Origin: SAR324 cluster bacterium
Lineage (GTDB): Bacteria; SAR324; XYD2-FULL-50-16
Reading direction: 5' to 3'
Assembly: GCA_028282885.1 (NCBI GenBank)
Contig: JANQGX010000045.1
Coordinates: forward strand, 1 to 64,000
DNA length: 64,000 nt
Part shown: positions 38,729 to 47,645 of the stretch, piece by piece
How positions within the stretch are numbered: position 1 is the first letter of the stretch
How the letters are laid out: each line of letters begins with the position of its first letter
Notes under the pieces: generated by a model
Told to the model about the DNA's origin: nothing
Database searches by the model: none
The model's input: the letters and a program-made list of their open reading frames with translations, nothing else
Program-made: the position numbers and the translations under genes

Positions 38729-39745
38729 ATGCCAGAAAAAAGAACAAAAAAGCCGGATTTTTACCGCACCTTTATGACTAAAGGATTTTTTCCCAGTTCC
38801 AACAAAATTGTAAAGTTTCAGGAATCGGAAAACTACTGGATTTTCAAAACCGGGAACCGTTTATACAAGGTTAAAAAGAAAGAGGAAAGCCAAAGTACCA
38901 TTCCTTTGGAGGAGATCTTTTGTACAGAGATCGTAAAGCAACTCCATCAATACTCTCCCACCCTGGAGGCGGAAAACCTAACCATCAAATCGCAGGACAA
39001 TCAATTCGTCATCGATTGGAACAGTGATATATCCTCTGCGCCACTCTACTATCTAATCGCAATGAAGCAATTAAGCGACAGGGGATTTTTGTCCAATATT
39101 ATCGCAAAGAAAAAGCTCAATGAAAAAACCTTGAAGAAAATCGCTATCCAGATTTTCGAATTGCACCAGAAAGCTAAGCAAAGTACTTCAAAAGTCGATG
39201 GATCTCCGGATGCCATTCAAGGAAACCTGGAAAATCTAATCTATCAATCGAAAAAGTTCCTGAACGTAACCATTACTCAAGCCATTATTGACATGAGTTT
39301 GCGGCCCTTGCTGAAATATCTTTCTGATAACAGAAAAGTATTCCTGAGGCGAATGAAACAAGGCCACATCCGAATGGTTCATGGTTGTTTAATTCCAAGA
39401 AAGATACACGTCTCCCCGGAAGGAATTCAATTGCTTGGTAAAACGAAGGATCCGATTAAAAACCTTTATAACGATATTGCATCGGATATTGCTGATCTAA
39501 GTGTGGCGTTACTTCATGCGGGTTTGGGTGATTTGTCGGATCATTTTATCAACACCTATTCAGAACAGGCGAATGATCCGGAACTCAAACTTGTGATTCC
39601 AGTTTACCAGGCAATGAAATGTCTGAGCCAGGGATTGAAAAACAGTATTGAAGCAAATGCGGTCGAAGGAGAGCAATCCGATATATTGAAGAAACTGGCT
39701 GTCAGCTATTATGAGCAGACTATTGATGTCGTACGAGGTTTGTGA
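38729..39745 (+). CDS. COG2187-like kinase-fold protein, catalytically altered
   Basis: 338 residues. The order of motifs follows the COG2187 aminoglycoside-phosphotransferase-like family: an N-terminal Lys region (RLYKVKKKEES), then IPLEEIFCTEIVKQLHQYSP, the AMKQL-like helix, IAIQIFELHQKAKQ, a basic segment RRMKQGHIRMVHG, and DIASDIADLSVALLHAGL near the end. The catalytic-loop motif HGDLH, which provides the Asp base, reads H218-G-C220-L, and the metal motif that follows is also changed (LLGKTKD). It should therefore not transfer phosphate and may bind a ligand or partner instead. No signal peptide. It stands alone, 118 bases ahead of the large S41 peptidase. Confidence 0.6.
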   Translation: MPEKRTKKPDFYRTFMTKGFFPSSNKIVKFQESENYWIFKTGNRLYKVKKKEESQSTIPLEEIFCTEIVKQLHQYSPTLEAENLTIKSQDNQFVIDWNSDISSAPLYYLIAMKQLSDRGFLSNIIAKKKLNEKTLKKIAIQIFELHQKAKQSTSKVDGSPDAIQGNLENLIYQSKKFLNVTITQAIIDMSLRPLLKYLSDNRKVFLRRMKQGHIRMVHGCLIPRKIHVSPEGIQLLGKTKDPIKNLYNDIASDIADLSVALLHAGLGDLSDHFINTYSEQANDPELKLVIPVYQAMKCLSQGLKNSIEANAVEGEQSDILKKLAVSYYEQTIDVVRGL

Positions 39746-39863: not shown

Positions 39864-42593
39864 ATGAGACTTTTAATATCCATAATCGCATTTCTCCTTT
39901 TGCTGCCTCAAGGACTGAGTGCTGAACGATTCATTCCAAAATCAGACTTGATTTTCAGAGTTCTGGATATTGTAAATCACCTTTATGTGGATCATGATCG
40001 AGTTCAGCCCGAAAAGATGCTTGAAGGATCAATGGAAAGGCTATCCGCAAACATTGCTCCTGTTCTAACCCAGATGGAGGTGCAGGATAATAAGGTTATT
40101 ATCAACGTCAGCGTTGATCAGTTTTCAAGAGGTTTTAAATACGACACACCAACCAATGTCAGGGATCTGAATTATATTCTGCAGCAGGTCGTCGGGTTTG
40201 TTAAACAGTACCTGGATAAAAATGAAAAGCCCGAAAATGTCGATTATGCAGTCATCAACGGGTTGCTTCGTCAGCTAGATCCGCACTCATCCCTTATGAT
40301 ACCGGAGATATATAAGGATTTCAGCACGCAGACGTCCGGCAATTTCGGCGGAGTTGGAATGATGATCAGCATCAGGGACGGTGCCTTAACCATCATCTCG
40401 CCGATTGATAACACGCCCGCTTCCAGAGCCGGACTCAAGGCAAATGACATCATCGTTCAAATCAATGAAGAGTCCACCGTGAACATGCCGTTGTCGGACG
40501 CCGTGGAAAAGCTCCGCGGAAAGGCCGGCACTGAAGTGGACATTTTTGTCATGCGGAAAGAGTTCTCATCTCCAAAAAAAATAACCATCATTAGGGACAT
40601 CATTGAGATCAATAGTGTAAAATCGTTCACTTTCAAGAAAGAAGGAAAGAGGGTCGGGCTAATAAAAATCAATACCTTTCAGCAGCAAAACACGATTGAT
40701 GAGATCAACCACCATTTAGAAGACCTTGATTACGACCTGAAGGATTTCTACGGTTTGATAGTTGACGTCAGGAACAATCCCGGTGGTCTTTTAGATCAAG
40801 CAATTCGAGTCAGTGACAGGTTTCTTAGTGACGGTGTAATTGTCTCAACTGCGGGGCTGAGAAAAGGATCTCTGAAGAGTTATAAGGCACATTGGTTCAG
40901 GAGCCTGACAAATGTCCCTGTATTAGTCTTGATTAACAACGGATCGGCTTCCGCATCAGAAATTTTCACTGCCGCTCTGAAGAAAAACAAAAGAGGGGTT
41001 GTACTGGGTATTCAAACATTCGGCAAAGGATCCGTTCAACAGGTTATCGGTTTTCCGGATGGCTCAGGACTTCGCTTAACCACTTCGCAATATCTTACCC
41101 CCGGAAATATATCTATCCAATCGGTCGGCGTATCTCCTCACATCGTGGTTAATCCATACTATGTGACTGATGATCTCTTGTATGTTACAACTCCCAAACT
41201 GGACAAGGGAGAGAACAGCCTGGCTCAGAACTTTTCCGAGTGGGCTGATAAAGCTGAACCTCCGCTTCAATCCATCTACTATCTGTACGAATCCCCGGAC
41301 AAGGATGAAGATGAGGAGAATAACGATTTGCTTTATAGCGAATTGGAATTCAAAAGACTACAGGAAGATTTTTTGGTGCAATCGGCAGTTGATATTCTTA
41401 TCAAAAACGAAAGAAAGAACTTTGATAATCTCCTGGAAAGCGCCCAGACCTACATGAAGGAAACCCAGCAGATCCAGGAGCAGAAGTTGATCGATCGTTT
41501 TGCCTCTTTCTCAACATCGGTTGATTGGAACTTATACCCGACCGAGCCTGATGGTAAGATCTCAACCACTCATTGGATCGAAATCAAAAAGCAGACCGGT
41601 GATAAAGAAGAGTGGCAACGTTACGAGGGGACCATCCCTGCAGAAAGCGAAGCACGTCTGTATATTGAAGCCAAAAACATCGGCAGCAAGCGATTGTCTC
41701 GCTTAATGGCGATTTCAGAAAGCGAAAATCGATTATATGATGATCGACAATTTGCCTTCGGAAAGCTCGAACCGGGTGAATCGAAACAGTGGTTTGTGCC
41801 TCTCAAGATCTCCAAATCCTCAGCGTCTCGAAATGATATCATTTTCATTCGGTTCACCGACGGAGACTCTACCGAGCTGTATGAACAGACCATTACGTTG
41901 CAGACCCTGCAAAAAGAGAGACCGGCTTTCGACTACACCATTCGAATTTTGGATAACGGAGAACAGAAATCCCAAGGTAATGGCAATCAGAAAATAGATC
42001 TGGGCGAAAAGATCGTTGCTGAAGTGACCATCATCAACCGTGGTAAGGGCGAATCGGGAGCATTGACCGCTTTATTGAAAAACGGAGAGGGAGAAAATGT
42101 TTTTCTCAACATCGGGAGACAGTCGCTGGATAGCCTGAAACCCGGTTCAAAAGTCACCACCTATTTTCAATTCGACGTTAAGAAAAAGCCTGTAGATGGT
42201 GAACTGGATTTTTCACTGGATATCATAGATAGTGTTTTCACCCTGTCTTCTTTGAACCAGAAGCTTAAGCTGCCATTTGAAGCATCGGTTCAACCTATCA
42301 CCAACATGCCTCCCAGGATTGAACTAATATCAGACAGCTTGCTCAGTGATGACAGCGATTATGATCTGGAAGGAAAGATTTTTGATAAAAAGGGAGTTAA
42401 AGACGTCTACGTTTTTATAAACAGGAAGAAAGTGTTTTATAAAAACTTCCTGTCTGTTGATGGCCGGGAAGCTGTAAACTTCAGCTTGAAACTGGACCTG
42501 GATAAAGAGAATAATAAGATTATCATAATCAGCCGAGATGACGACAACGTCGCGTCACAGAAAAATTTGTTTGTGCGTCGGGCCCGCATTTAA
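39864..42593 (+). CDS. Large S41 peptidase, MXAN_5808-like
   Basis: 909 residues, about twice the usual Ctp length. Signal peptide MRLLISIIAFLLLLPQGLSA. The N-terminal part contains a PDZ domain (GGVGMMISIRDGAL, then AGLKANDIIVQINEES) and the S41 core with VDVRNNPGGLL, the nucleophile Ser in NNGSASASEIF and the Lys in GIQTFGKGSVQQV. An acidic linker (PDKDEDEENND) leads into a second half with beta-sandwich, CARDB-like parts (IEAKNIGSKRL; AEVTIINRGKGESG). This two-part plan resembles the MXAN_5808-type peptidases of myxobacteria and related bacteria. It should be a periplasmic processing protease with extra binding domains. It is upstream of the CfpA-like gene but 256 bases away. Confidence 0.88.
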   Translation: MRLLISIIAFLLLLPQGLSAERFIPKSDLIFRVLDIVNHLYVDHDRVQPEKMLEGSMERLSANIAPVLTQMEVQDNKVIINVSVDQFSRGFKYDTPTNVRDLNYILQQVVGFVKQYLDKNEKPENVDYAVINGLLRQLDPHSSLMIPEIYKDFSTQTSGNFGGVGMMISIRDGALTIISPIDNTPASRAGLKANDIIVQINEESTVNMPLSDAVEKLRGKAGTEVDIFVMRKEFSSPKKITIIRDIIEINSVKSFTFKKEGKRVGLIKINTFQQQNTIDEINHHLEDLDYDLKDFYGLIVDVRNNPGGLLDQAIRVSDRFLSDGVIVSTAGLRKGSLKSYKAHWFRSLTNVPVLVLINNGSASASEIFTAALKKNKRGVVLGIQTFGKGSVQQVIGFPDGSGLRLTTSQYLTPGNISIQSVGVSPHIVVNPYYVTDDLLYVTTPKLDKGENSLAQNFSEWADKAEPPLQSIYYLYESPDKDEDEENNDLLYSELEFKRLQEDFLVQSAVDILIKNERKNFDNLLESAQTYMKETQQIQEQKLIDRFASFSTSVDWNLYPTEPDGKISTTHWIEIKKQTGDKEEWQRYEGTIPAESEARLYIEAKNIGSKRLSRLMAISESENRLYDDRQFAFGKLEPGESKQWFVPLKISKSSASRNDIIFIRFTDGDSTELYEQTITLQTLQKERPAFDYTIRILDNGEQKSQGNGNQKIDLGEKIVAEVTIINRGKGESGALTALLKNGEGENVFLNIGRQSLDSLKPGSKVTTYFQFDVKKKPVDGELDFSLDIIDSVFTLSSLNQKLKLPFEASVQPITNMPPRIELISDSLLSDDSDYDLEGKIFDKKGVKDVYVFINRKKVFYKNFLSVDGREAVNFSLKLDLDKENNKIIIISRDDDNVASQKNLFVRRARI

Positions 42594-42849: not shown

Positions 42850-44694
42850 ATGGCTCGAGAGACAATTGTGAAAGGACCCAATTACGTTCATCCGGAAAAA
42901 CCAAGCGCCGTAGGTTCAAGAAATAGTCTCAACAGACATGACCGAGATGAGTATCAGGAATCCAGAAGCATCATTGATGAAGAAGTCGATAAGATTCTAA
43001 ATCACATACATGCAAAGCTTCCTCCTGAAGTTCTTGAAAAACTGGATATTATGGGGTCGATTAAATCCAAACTCCATAACTACTTCAATCAGGATTTCCA
43101 GAACATGCTTAATCGTTACCTGGTAACGATGGAAGACGAGATGTCCAAAAAGGTTCGGGATCTCGTAGACAAAGAAGAGAACCGAACGCTTAATCGATAT
43201 TCGGCCAGGGAAATTACCGAGATTCTCGATCGTATCGGCGGTACCGGAACCTTTAATACTGGCGAGATAGAAAAGTCGGTCGTCAATATGTACAGCCATC
43301 TGCAGATGCATATTGAACGTGGAATGTCCGAACTGGAAACTGATACCAACGCGCTTCTCAGGGAAAAATCAGACGTTGGAGCATTCGTTAGGGGTCAAAA
43401 CTCCTACGCAATCGTTAAATGCTCTTTTAAAGATAATGCAAGACGACCCAAAACAGTAATGGATGTCAAACTGTCTATCGGTATCCTGGATTCGGAACTG
43501 GTCAGCCGCATTTATCACTATCAAGTCCCGGTGACAGCCATTATTAAAGATATAGTCGCCAAAAACATCCATCAACTCATTGACAAGGAGATCGAGGAAA
43601 TCAACCATCTCGCATTGGATGAAGGAAGAGAAGAGATGAATGATTCGGAAAAGATCTTCGAGAAACTGAGAATCATGGACAAGTATATTTCCGACGATGA
43701 TTCGGCGGATTCAAAACGATATCAGTTCGTTGCCAAAAGATTTCTGGATTCTGTCGATGGTATTCAAGCGGAAATCGACTCCAAGGATTATGATGCCCTG
43801 AACATAAGGGAGAACATCAAAAAGATCATCGACAAGGAAAACATCCGCAACAGGGGATTTAATACGGCAGTTAACGCTATCACCTCGATTCTGGATACCA
43901 GCAAAATGGGTTATCAATATATCGAGAACTTCAAAAATGCCAGGGACTGCATCATTCGCGAATATGAAGAGGAAGATGTCACCCGACTCCCGGACGAGAG
44001 ATACAGCATCAGATTAACCTACTATGACCAGGGGCAGCTAAAGCTATTGAGGAAAGCCTATTCCGATCAGATCGACGAGCTTGATCGCGAAGTCATGCAC
44101 CTTTGGAATGTCTGTGATGGCGTCTATCTGCTGGATAGAGATGAAAAGGGATATGACGACTGGGAAACCCTGTCAGAAAGAATGCTGAATCCGAAAACCA
44201 AAAAGGGATTTTTCGGCAAGAAGAAAGAACAGGAAGAGGTTGAAGAAGAATTCGACAAGGGATGGAATGAAATCAGCTTCATTTCCCCGAAGGAAACCAC
44301 CGTCGAAAGTGAGAATCCAACCGATGAGATCAGGCTGGAAGAGATCGGAAAGCGTTTCCCAATTATGCTCCAGAAACTGGAAGATGTTTATCAGGATGTA
44401 AAAGACGAACGTAGGCGGGTTTTGGAGTCAAGGATCAGCTTTTTGAAAGAGCAGTATGATAAATTCACCGGCAAGATTAATCCATATCACGTGCAACCCG
44501 GATTGCTGTTAGATATCGACATCACCAGCATTAAAAAGAAGAAGACCACGATGATGAACATGGCAAATGTCATCAACGAATTCCTTTTTTCGGTATCCAA
44601 AGGCTTCTCTGATGCTGCTTTTGTAAGTCTTTCCCGAACAAGATCTACTGAACGGGCAGACATTGAACAAGAATTTGAAAGTGTTGTCGAATAG
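42850..44694 (+). CDS. cfpA: CfpA-like cytoplasmic filament protein
   Basis: 614 residues, highly charged, helix-rich and without signal peptide or membrane segment. Segments such as LPPEVLEKLDIMGSIKSKL, YFNQDFQNMLNRYLVTMEDE, GFNTAVNAITSILDTSKMGY and YHVQPGLLLDIDITSIKKKK correspond, from memory, to the cytoplasmic filament protein CfpA of Treponema and other spirochaetes. CfpA forms a ribbon of intracellular filaments and affects chromosome structure and cell division. A Lys/Glu-rich insert lies at about 450-475 (KKGFFGKKKEQEEVEEEF). The Shine-Dalgarno GGAGTG precedes the ATG. It is monocistronic by spacing. My identification rests on pattern memory; a database alignment would settle it. Confidence 0.65.
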   Translation: MARETIVKGPNYVHPEKPSAVGSRNSLNRHDRDEYQESRSIIDEEVDKILNHIHAKLPPEVLEKLDIMGSIKSKLHNYFNQDFQNMLNRYLVTMEDEMSKKVRDLVDKEENRTLNRYSAREITEILDRIGGTGTFNTGEIEKSVVNMYSHLQMHIERGMSELETDTNALLREKSDVGAFVRGQNSYAIVKCSFKDNARRPKTVMDVKLSIGILDSELVSRIYHYQVPVTAIIKDIVAKNIHQLIDKEIEEINHLALDEGREEMNDSEKIFEKLRIMDKYISDDDSADSKRYQFVAKRFLDSVDGIQAEIDSKDYDALNIRENIKKIIDKENIRNRGFNTAVNAITSILDTSKMGYQYIENFKNARDCIIREYEEEDVTRLPDERYSIRLTYYDQGQLKLLRKAYSDQIDELDREVMHLWNVCDGVYLLDRDEKGYDDWETLSERMLNPKTKKGFFGKKKEQEEVEEEFDKGWNEISFISPKETTVESENPTDEIRLEEIGKRFPIMLQKLEDVYQDVKDERRRVLESRISFLKEQYDKFTGKINPYHVQPGLLLDIDITSIKKKKTTMMNMANVINEFLFSVSKGFSDAAFVSLSRTRSTERADIEQEFESVVE

Positions 44695-44869: not shown

Positions 44870-46249
44870 ATGCAATCCATCGATACCTATCTCACCCGAT
44901 ACCACATATCACTGTATTCCTCCGAACTAGCTATTGATACCACAATAGCACTGGATGAAGACCGTCATAAGGACCCCCTTAGGCAGCTGTTTCAAACGAT
45001 TGGTGAGTTGGACCTGCCCAGAAACATCAGTTTGAATCTGATTCTGGATCAGGCCTATATTGGTTATTTTAATTTTCATCTGCCTGCGGTGAGCCGTAGA
45101 AAACTGGGCAGGATTTTGCGATTTGAACTGGGGGATTATCTGATTGATGACATTGACGAATTCTTCTATGACTATCGATTCAGCGGAAAACGGGGAGTGA
45201 CCACCCAGGTCGGAATTTACCTAATCAGAAAAGATGTGGTTAATCGGATTTTACAGTTCTCCAAGTCCCATAATCTGGAAATCAGAAGCATACTCCCACT
45301 CAGCAATCTGATCGACCTGCGCCTTCAGGAGAAGTATCAACCACAGAACGAAATTATCGCTGTTGCCGACTCTTTTCAGTCCGGCATCTATATTTATCAG
45401 GACGGATTTCTGGTCACCGGCACCACCCAATCAAATCGAAAATGGGAACCTATGCTGGTTGATCGGGATAATAATGATAAAGGACCTTACAAGCTCAAAG
45501 ATTTGAATCGTCGCATTCGAGCGGTCAACTTGGAAAGAGATGACATTACCGGTCTCAGGATTGATGAATCAAGTCTCTCTCTTATCCGGCTTGACGAGGA
45601 AAATGAGTTATCAGCAGTAAATAATCCCGGAAAGAACGACGAAAAGGTTTTATACTCAACCCTGCTTCAACCTCAGTTGGTAAGAAGATCCAATCGAATC
45701 AATCTCCTGAAATCTAATTTCTTTCTTATACAGGAGATCAGGAAACATACTACGAAAATTGCGGTATCAGGACTGCTTTTGATTCTCTTTTTCCTGGTTT
45801 TTGTCTCCTCCCTGTTTTATGAAAACCACCTAGAAAAAGAACGATTAAAGGACATTGAAAAAGCATATACCGCTACCATTGAAAAGTACTTGCCTAAGGG
45901 TACATCTAAATCGAATGCTTTGCAGAACTTAAGATCGCAGGTTCAACAACTTAAAGAGGAACAGGCATTAAAACAGAAATTCAATAGAAGAGAATACAAA
46001 GTATCATCCCAGTTGGCTGCCTTATCCAAAATCAGACAAACGCTGCCAACATTGGTTCTTCATCGATTTTATCAAACTGATCAGTCTATACGAATTCAAG
46101 GCGAAATCGACTCTTTTACCCAATATGAGAAACTGAAGAATAACCTGCAAAAGATCTACAGTACCAAAGAATTCGAGCTCAAGTACAATCAGAAGAGCAG
46201 CGGTGAATCCAGGGTGCAGTTCTCGATTATCATCAGGTCGCTGAACTAA
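44870..46249 (+). CDS. gspL: GspL-like type II secretion platform protein
   Basis: 459 residues. The cytoplasmic part (about 1-290) contains the PilM/GspL-type segment FNFHLPAVSRRKLGRILRFE, then LGDYLIDDIDEFFYDYRF. A single membrane helix follows at about 300-318 (KIAVSGLLLILFFLVFVSSL), then a coiled coil (NALQNLRSQVQQLKEEQALK) and a periplasmic ferredoxin-like domain ending QFSIIIRSLN. This is the GspL plan: it links the cytoplasmic ATPase GspE to GspM in the inner membrane. It is followed by gspM and gspN in the order used by deltaproteobacterial type II systems. GspC-K and the secretin are not in the window. Confidence 0.65.
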   Translation: MQSIDTYLTRYHISLYSSELAIDTTIALDEDRHKDPLRQLFQTIGELDLPRNISLNLILDQAYIGYFNFHLPAVSRRKLGRILRFELGDYLIDDIDEFFYDYRFSGKRGVTTQVGIYLIRKDVVNRILQFSKSHNLEIRSILPLSNLIDLRLQEKYQPQNEIIAVADSFQSGIYIYQDGFLVTGTTQSNRKWEPMLVDRDNNDKGPYKLKDLNRRIRAVNLERDDITGLRIDESSLSLIRLDEENELSAVNNPGKNDEKVLYSTLLQPQLVRRSNRINLLKSNFFLIQEIRKHTTKIAVSGLLLILFFLVFVSSLFYENHLEKERLKDIEKAYTATIEKYLPKGTSKSNALQNLRSQVQQLKEEQALKQKFNRREYKVSSQLAALSKIRQTLPTLVLHRFYQTDQSIRIQGEIDSFTQYEKLKNNLQKIYSTKEFELKYNQKSSGESRVQFSIIIRSLN

Positions 46250-46298: not shown

Positions 46299-46769
46299 AT
46301 GGAACTAAGTCAGAGAGAAAAAACACTTATTGTCATAGCGCTGTTGATTTTCATCCCCTTGTTGCTTTTCAGGTTCGTGATCTTACCGGTTTCGCAAGAG
46401 GAGAAAAATATCGGACAACAGATAGAATCACTATTGTCCAAGACCGAACAGATAGATCTATTGGGTCAGGAGTTGTTGTATCTGAAAAGAGGGAATCGCT
46501 CAAAATCCGTTTCCCTGATTAAGAAAACCGATTCTCTGCTTAGAATGTACAGTCTTAAGGCACGCTCAAAGATTGTGCTGGAAGACCAGCCAAGAGGTGG
46601 CCAGCGATTGATATTGAAGCTGGATGAAATCAATCTGACCGAGTTGTCAAGGCTGATTTACAAAATTGAAGACTCAAAGCCAGTTGTGATCATAGACAAC
46701 ATAGATCTGAATCGATCCTATAAAAATAAAAAGCTCTTTCGAGTTTCAATGGCTTTGACCAGCGGTTAA
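46299..46769 (+). CDS. gspM: GspM-like type II secretion protein
   Basis: 156 residues. A short N terminus leads into a membrane helix (TLIVIALLIFIPLLLFRFVI, residues about 9-28), then a coiled coil and a periplasmic alpha/beta domain (residues about 85-155: LILKLDEINLTELSRLIYKI). The plan and size are those of GspM, which pairs with GspL through the helix and periplasmic domain. Gap from gspL is 49 bases and to gspN 18 bases. Confidence 0.65.
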   Translation: MELSQREKTLIVIALLIFIPLLLFRFVILPVSQEEKNIGQQIESLLSKTEQIDLLGQELLYLKRGNRSKSVSLIKKTDSLLRMYSLKARSKIVLEDQPRGGQRLILKLDEINLTELSRLIYKIEDSKPVVIIDNIDLNRSYKNKKLFRVSMALTSG

Positions 46770-46787
46770 TTCGATACTCTGAACATA

Positions 46788-47645
46788 ATGCTAAAACGAT
46801 TGTTGCTCCTCATTTTGGTCAGCGTTTGCGTGTTGTTGATAATCCTGACCTCTTTTTGGCTAAATTTGAACAGCAACACTATAACGCCATGGCTGGAAAA
46901 CCAACTGAACAGCCAACTACCACGGCCATATTCCACAAAGATACGGAATGTGGAAACCCGATTGAGCGGATTGATAATCGACCGGTTGGATCTTCACGAT
47001 TCAACTACAAACCAGATATTATTAACTATTAATGCCGCAGCTCTAAAAATCAATCCATTTGACCTGATTGCTTTCCAGCAAATTGGATATTATGCCGAAT
47101 TATATGAAGGCATGATCGAAGGTGATCTCGATATATTTCCGGATAAATCGATCAATATGAAAATCAGTGATATACAGATTAATCGCAATCCCTACATCAG
47201 AAAAACAAATCTGATCGTTTCAAATCCGCAGTTGAACGGAGAGGGATCTTACCTGTTCGCAGAAAAACCAATAGGACAGCTTACCCTTTCGCTGGACCGG
47301 TTAAAACTGTCGGGAAAATCGGATCATACCGGTTTACCTTTTGAATTTCCTACCACCAATATAGAATGGGTTAAGAGCGGGCTCTCCATAGACGATGACA
47401 CTTTAGAACTGCGGGTCAGTTCTTTAGGTGATTTTTCAGCCAATCTGGAAGGAAAACTGGGGCTTAATTGGAAGGCGCTCAGTAAATCCACACTGGATTT
47501 GGCCTTGAAGGGAAAGCTGGATTCCAAATATGAATCTGGGCTTGGTTTTTTTAAGGAGATTTTAGTAAACTACAAGAACACGGCAGGTCAGATTTCTGTT
47601 AAAATAAAAGGAAATCTGAATCGACCCCAAGTCGTTCGCAATTAA
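46788..47645 (+). CDS. gspN: GspN-family type II secretion protein
   Basis: 285 residues. An N-terminal membrane anchor (LLLLILVSVCVLLIILTSFW) is followed by a beta-rich periplasmic domain with INAAALKINPFDLIAFQQIG, then GYYAELYEGMIEGDLDIFPD and LNGEGSYLFAEKPIGQLTLS. This pattern matches the GspN proteins found with GspL/M in deltaproteobacteria. GspN is a minor, accessory inner-membrane component of unknown precise role. It is followed by mltG with 18 bases between, probably in the same operon. Confidence 0.7.
   Translation: MLKRLLLLILVSVCVLLIILTSFWLNLNSNTITPWLENQLNSQLPRPYSTKIRNVETRLSGLIIDRLDLHDSTTNQILLTINAAALKINPFDLIAFQQIGYYAELYEGMIEGDLDIFPDKSINMKISDIQINRNPYIRKTNLIVSNPQLNGEGSYLFAEKPIGQLTLSLDRLKLSGKSDHTGLPFEFPTTNIEWVKSGLSIDDDTLELRVSSLGDFSANLEGKLGLNWKALSKSTLDLALKGKLDSKYESGLGFFKEILVNYKNTAGQISVKIKGNLNRPQVVRN

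Follow-up and report, generated by a model that had tools for sequence, protein, structure and literature searches.

The gene of interest is an unbroken open reading frame on the forward strand of the window, by which we mean the whole stretch of 64,000 nucleotides that was analysed from a SAR324 cluster bacterium. It starts with ATG and encodes a CfpA protein (Table 1). Four families of the SAR324 phylum (f1 to f4) and three groups of cfpA orthologues (OG_A to OG_C) are distinguished below; the window copy belongs to OG_A. The surroundings of this gene are conserved: the S41 peptidase gene lies upstream of cfpA in every f1 OG_A locus, and a GspL-like gene lies downstream in 10/10 f1 loci and in the five f3 loci with enough sequence, counted as a neighbour if adjacent or placed after one accA-like gene. 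The two genes that follow keep their order as well, and are called GspM-like and GspN-like by position only. Upstream of the peptidase gene and cfpA, the gene for a 338-residue protein without a family is conserved in all f1 genomes.

Table 1. Genes around the window cfpA, and other loci referred to in the text.
Feature	Position	Strand	Evidence or remark
338-aa protein, family-less	38729..39745	+	no Pfam or NCBIfam match; conserved position
S41 (C-terminal-processing) peptidase, MXAN_5808 family	39864..42593	+	TIGR03900, 684 bits (cut-off 661)
CfpA, OG_A, 614 aa	42850..44694	+	NF040882, 824 bits
GspL-like protein (type II secretion)	44870..46249	+	TIGR01709, 39.7 bits; Pfam GspL_C, 25.6 bits; both under cut-off
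156-aa conserved neighbour	46299..46769	+	GspM-like by position only; conserved order
285-aa conserved neighbour	46788..47645	+	GspN-like by position only; conserved order
Other CfpA copy, same genome	C42:263608-265440
Other CfpA copy, same genome	C51:92849-94573
Odd spirochaete CfpA (L191)	G371:C1:4871-6277
Odd spirochaete CfpA (L188)	G280:C1:2249885-2251645
CfpA-linked PPDK-like gene (L291)	G124:C1:810752-813313
Short HPr-like-domain protein, f3	L263:5827-6303
Short HPr-like-domain protein, f3	L265:5793-6209
Short HPr-like-domain protein, f3	L268:5786-6334

The window CfpA and its host

Against the NCBIfam equivalog NF040882 ("cytoplasmic filament protein CfpA", cut-off 500 bits), the window protein scores 824 bits (E 6.8e-248) and spans profile positions 3-604 of 605. 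An earlier note on this DNA had proposed that the protein closely follows spirochaete CfpA, and the profile similarity bears this out. The three motifs quoted in that note are all present in the reading frame, in strongly conserved columns of an alignment of the window protein with 48 relatives. This alignment has a mean column identity of 64% and more than 100 invariant columns. The window protein is 88-89% identical to the copies of two MAGs of the same genus, 67-76% to other SAR324 copies and, across nearly the whole length, 53-58% to those of Spirochaetota. A C-terminal tail of about 60-70 residues, present in spirochaete CfpA, is absent from SAR324 CfpA. Judged by its sequence, the window gene encodes a true, full-length CfpA; the family membership and the distribution given below are firm.

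No Pfam family matched above threshold, and a hit to IFT20 (20 bits, cut-off 27) was rejected as chance. A search of the PDB identified no solved structure related by sequence. The AF2 model of CfpA, built from 49 sequences, was poor (pLDDT 56, pTM 0.40), and no conclusion on the fold was drawn from it.

The host belongs to the SAR324 phylum and is not a spirochaete, because its named relatives are SAR324 or Lambdaproteobacteria and because all SAR324 families are split from seven spirochaetes in the rpoB tree (100/100). By title, the nearest matches are a "SAR324 cluster bacterium" (89%), two further MAGs (88% and 76%) and a "Deltaproteobacteria" (70%). Next come two Candidatus Lambdaproteobacteria MAGs, RIFOXYD2_FULL_50_16 and RIFOXYD2_FULL_56_26 (67-68%), and then the spirochaetes. 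The order XYD2-FULL-50-16 corresponds to SAR324 group 1 (PMC9031357). The surrounding genome had been described in the earlier note as looking more deltaproteobacterial or SAR324-like, and the note left two possibilities: a relative of the spirochaetes, or a CfpA more widely spread than usually stated. A tree of conserved genes could have placed the host inside the spirochaetes; as rpoB separates them, the latter possibility is the correct one, with CfpA anciently fixed in two SAR324 families. This wider spread extends to a second phylum and, within the genomes searched, no further: among 383 "relatives", CfpA was found solely in the same 20 SAR324 genomes, and thus in none of the roughly 330 that fall outside this phylum (a number obtained by subtraction; Spirochaetota were searched separately).

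Distribution and orthology of CfpA

CfpA is encoded in 20/52 genomes of the SAR324 phylum, namely 10/10 of family f1 and 10/10 of family f3, usually as three paralogues per genome; two further copies were located in the genome of the window (Table 1). None was found in f2 (1 genome) and f4 (31 genomes). As f3 and f4 group together in the rpoB tree (89/92), the absence from f4 is most simply a loss. In Spirochaetota, 122/345 genomes contain CfpA, nearly always as a single copy. Two odd spirochaete copies (L191 and L188) were encountered: one is highly diverged, with a frame of 813 codons, and the other contains a TAA, with a frame of 2159 codons.

The idea that CfpA simply tracks flagella was rejected, since flagellin is present in 52/52 SAR324 genomes (G000 to G051; 2 to 20 matches each), with or without CfpA. 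FlaA was detected in 0/52 SAR324 genomes versus 7/7 spirochaete controls. CfpA is ancient in a phylum apparently devoid of spirochaete-type flagella, and is therefore not simply an accessory of periplasmic flagella.

A quick tree of 95 CfpA sequences contains six SAR324 clades and a single Spirochaetota clade, each with a support of 100. In a more careful tree of 68 sequences, the Spirochaetota copies again form one clade (100/100), with no SAR324 copy inside. Two of the orthologue groups are recovered across the families: OG_A (f1A and f3x, 97/97) and OG_B (f1b and f3A, 94/87). The f3y copies join Spirochaetota (75/74), with f1c adjacent, and OG_C is no clade there; its orthology rests on gene order, not on the tree. 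In both SAR324 families, the OG_C copy is followed by the pair of partner genes described below. OG_A precedes the gspL-like gene in f1 and f3, and four f3 and two f1 loci of OG_B have an upstream lipoprotein gene in common. Going by trees and gene order together, the three groups predate the split between f1 and f3. The CfpA and PPDK-like trees are unrooted or reciprocally monophyletic, and no direction of transfer can be read from them.

The partner genes of cfpA

In most Spirochaetota loci and most SAR324 OG_C loci, cfpA is followed by a gene for an HPr-like-domain protein (about 260-410 aa) and then by a PPDK-like gene (about 815-970 aa). These spirochaete-type partners are not found beside the window copy, but beside the OG_C paralogue of the same genome. 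The f3 loci read cfpA(y), partner, PPDK-like, cfpA(x), gspL-like. The HPr-like gene was identified in 119/345 Spirochaetota genomes, including 116 of the 122 that encode CfpA (Fisher p 5e-80, shared ancestry ignored). In at least 10 genomes, it lies at a distance from cfpA or on a different contig, and in three of the four such loci inspected, it still adjoins the PPDK-like gene. Within SAR324, all f3 and 6/10 f1 genomes possess it; it was not found in G048 (98% complete) and G049 (88%), where CfpA is present. A protein family with von Willebrand factor A domains, its gene often in divergent orientation, recurs beside spirochaete cfpA (L178-L187, L273 and most Treponema-type loci), and none was seen adjoining the SAR324 copies.

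The likeness of the first partner to HPr (PF00381) was proposed from its sequence, ahead of any model. The AF2 model of a spirochaete homologue (15 sequences; pLDDT 76.5, pTM 0.60) predicts an alpha/beta domain at the N-terminus, joined by a disordered linker to a C-terminal domain composed of a strand, a helix, two strands, a helix, a strand and a helix (b-a-b-b-a-b-a). In a Foldseek search of this model against the PDB, HPr structures were at the top and frequent in the best 50 matches (probability up to 0.95, E 0.05-0.5). A histidine ahead of the first helix of this domain is invariant in 21/21 sequences from both phyla, at the place of His15 in HPr. On the other hand, of the HPr signature His-x-Arg-Pro only the His is kept and Arg-Pro is absent, the domain is fused to a second one, and no match was obtained in Pfam (E 0.01) or NCBIfam. 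An hhalign comparison with HPr was not significant (probability 9%), in a weak test, with some rows cut too far downstream. We call the partner HPr-like, not HPr; the genomes checked have a gene for a true HPr at another place. A further, short protein containing the HPr-like domain is also encoded in f3 genomes (Table 1); two of the three inspected have Tyr at the position of the conserved His.

The known systems closest to the second partner are pyruvate, phosphate dikinase (PPDK, TIGR01828) and enzyme I. It is homologous to PPDK over its whole length, with the phosphohistidine domain and mostly the PEP domain kept. Two members score 577 and 644 bits against TIGR01828, below the cut-off of 843. 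It differs from PPDK in the replacement of the ATP-grasp residues K22, R92, E323 and Q335 and, in f3, of the PEP site too. The numbering follows the C. symbiosum enzyme, by which the numbered residues are presumably the catalytic ones. As a reference, 18 true PPDKs of the same genome set were used, all with K22 and R92; the alignment at Q335 and R337 shifted once they served as such. The mobile-domain phosphohistidine H455 is present in 85/85 altered PPDKs. In Spirochaetota, K22R and R92V/I occur in 70/70 members, mostly with E323R/K and Q335E/D, and H455 and the PEP-site residues are kept in all 70. In f1, the ATP site has decayed and the PEP site is retained (6/6). In f3, K22R, R92V, E323K and Q335E are found in 9/9, and most PEP-site residues are lost: the His and E745 are the only invariant ones there.

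A tree rooted on the true PPDKs unites the linked proteins in a single clade (100/100), divided into SAR324 (99/96) and Spirochaetota (87/67). These separate clades reflect an ancient divergence rather than a recent transfer. A true PPDK is additionally present in 9/10 spirochaete genomes checked. The exception is G124, which we infer to be T. pallidum from the coordinates of TP0746 and TP0748 (PMC3373638, PMC10013896). In G124, the sole PPDK-like gene encodes the CfpA-linked form, with K22R and R92V. TP0746 has been treated as a glycolytic PPDK (PMC10013896, PMC8525777); its residues would call this annotation as a working PPDK into question, and the matter deserves a test.

Proposed function and comparison with known systems

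In treponemes, where CfpA forms ribbons beneath the inner membrane, mutation of cfpA causes defects in division and chromosome condensation (PMC3398590, PMC13398306). By analogy, the SAR324 subunits most probably assemble into cytoplasmic ribbons at this place too, and would help to organise cell division and chromosome segregation. We consider it fairly probable that the window CfpA is one of three ancestral f1/f3 subunits, that it is ribbon-forming, that the subunits have divided their roles and that the partner pair controls the filament. The treponeme filament consists of a single protein species (PMC3398590), which is doubtful for SAR324, because there are three cfpA genes per genome. Probably, the roles are divided between the orthologue groups, with OG_A located by type II secretion-like genes and OG_C heading the spirochaete-type cassette; OG_A and OG_B would do something further, beyond the role of OG_C.

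The HPr-like protein and the altered PPDK would together control filament assembly or anchoring. In such a relay, the altered PPDK, with an ATP site that looks non-functional, would receive a phosphate from PEP on its histidine and pass it on to that of the HPr-like domain; the HPr-like protein would then act on the CfpA filament. As the f3 proteins lack PEP-site residues, the relay cannot operate in this family in the proposed, PEP-fed form. Together with the missing partner gene in G048 and G049, this means that the relay, if it exists, is not universal. A more far-reaching idea is possible, if doubtful: the CfpA cytoskeletons of two phyla would be under a dedicated PEP-fed phosphorelay, with a three-subunit expansion in SAR324, and the T. 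pallidum "PPDK" would be a filament regulator instead of a glycolytic enzyme. If true, a bacterial cytoskeleton would be wired directly to central metabolism.

The main competing explanation is that SAR324 CfpA serves as a filament or scaffold in another use, for example, holding a type II secretion system, and not as a cell-length ribbon. It would agree with the GspL-like gene adjoining OG_A in both families, with the missing C-terminal tail and with the lack of FlaA (0/52 vs. 7/7 controls), hence of a spirochaete-type periplasmic flagellar sheath. However, OG_B lies away from secretion genes, OG_C retains the spirochaete partners, and an identity of 53-58% over nearly the full length argues for the same basic assembly; this use is therefore regarded as rather unlikely. 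Lower still is the probability that the altered PPDK is an ordinary metabolic PPDK, linked to cfpA by accident. In favour of this, Spirochaetota and SAR324 f1 preserve the catalytic His and the PEP/pyruvate-site residues, and TP0746 is annotated as a PPDK (PMC10013896, PMC8525777). Such an enzyme is nevertheless difficult to reconcile with the replacement of K22 and R92 in 70/70 Spirochaetota members, with scores of 577 and 644 bits against a cut-off of 843 and with the separate true PPDK in 9/10 spirochaete genomes checked. Moreover, the true and linked kinds fall in separate clades (100/100), and the pair stays together in 3/4 loci away from cfpA.

The unusually high identity between the phyla (53-58%) might also suggest that SAR324 recently acquired the gene horizontally from a treponeme-like spirochaete. 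This is very improbable: the Spirochaetota CfpA clade (100/100) excludes every SAR324 copy, the altered PPDKs of SAR324 group in a single clade outside Spirochaetota (99/96), and orthologues with a conserved gene order occur across two families. Since the genomes are MAGs, a contaminating or mis-binned spirochaete contig was considered too, but is hardly credible, as the gene is embedded among SAR324 neighbours on a 271-kb contig and as many genomes, among them MAGs with independent titles, have its orthologues in the same gene order.

CfpA has been stated to be exclusive to spirochaetes (PMC2776988), and a full-text search of the open-licence literature for SAR324 and "cytoplasmic filament protein" returned no paper. 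The SAR324 proteins may already bear the name CfpA in databases, since NCBI's own profile would name them so. In the accessible cfpA literature, no mention of the HPr-like and altered PPDK partner genes was found. What is new is thus the occurrence of a known family in a new phylum and in three copies, together with a conserved, apparently undescribed pair of partners. The comparison across phyla exposes these two partner genes and makes their role testable.

With Ccrp of Helicobacter and FilP, CfpA shares a proposed role in cell organisation and a largely helical nature; kinship in sequence is not claimed. From Treponema CfpA (T. pallidum TP0748; T. denticola cfpA), the SAR324 proteins, whose ribbons are a prediction, differ by their three paralogues instead of one, a shorter C-terminus and a host without FlaA. 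They have in common with it the full-length equivalog match, the identity of 53-58% to the aligned Spirochaetota copies and, for OG_C, the same order of cfpA, HPr-like gene and altered PPDK.
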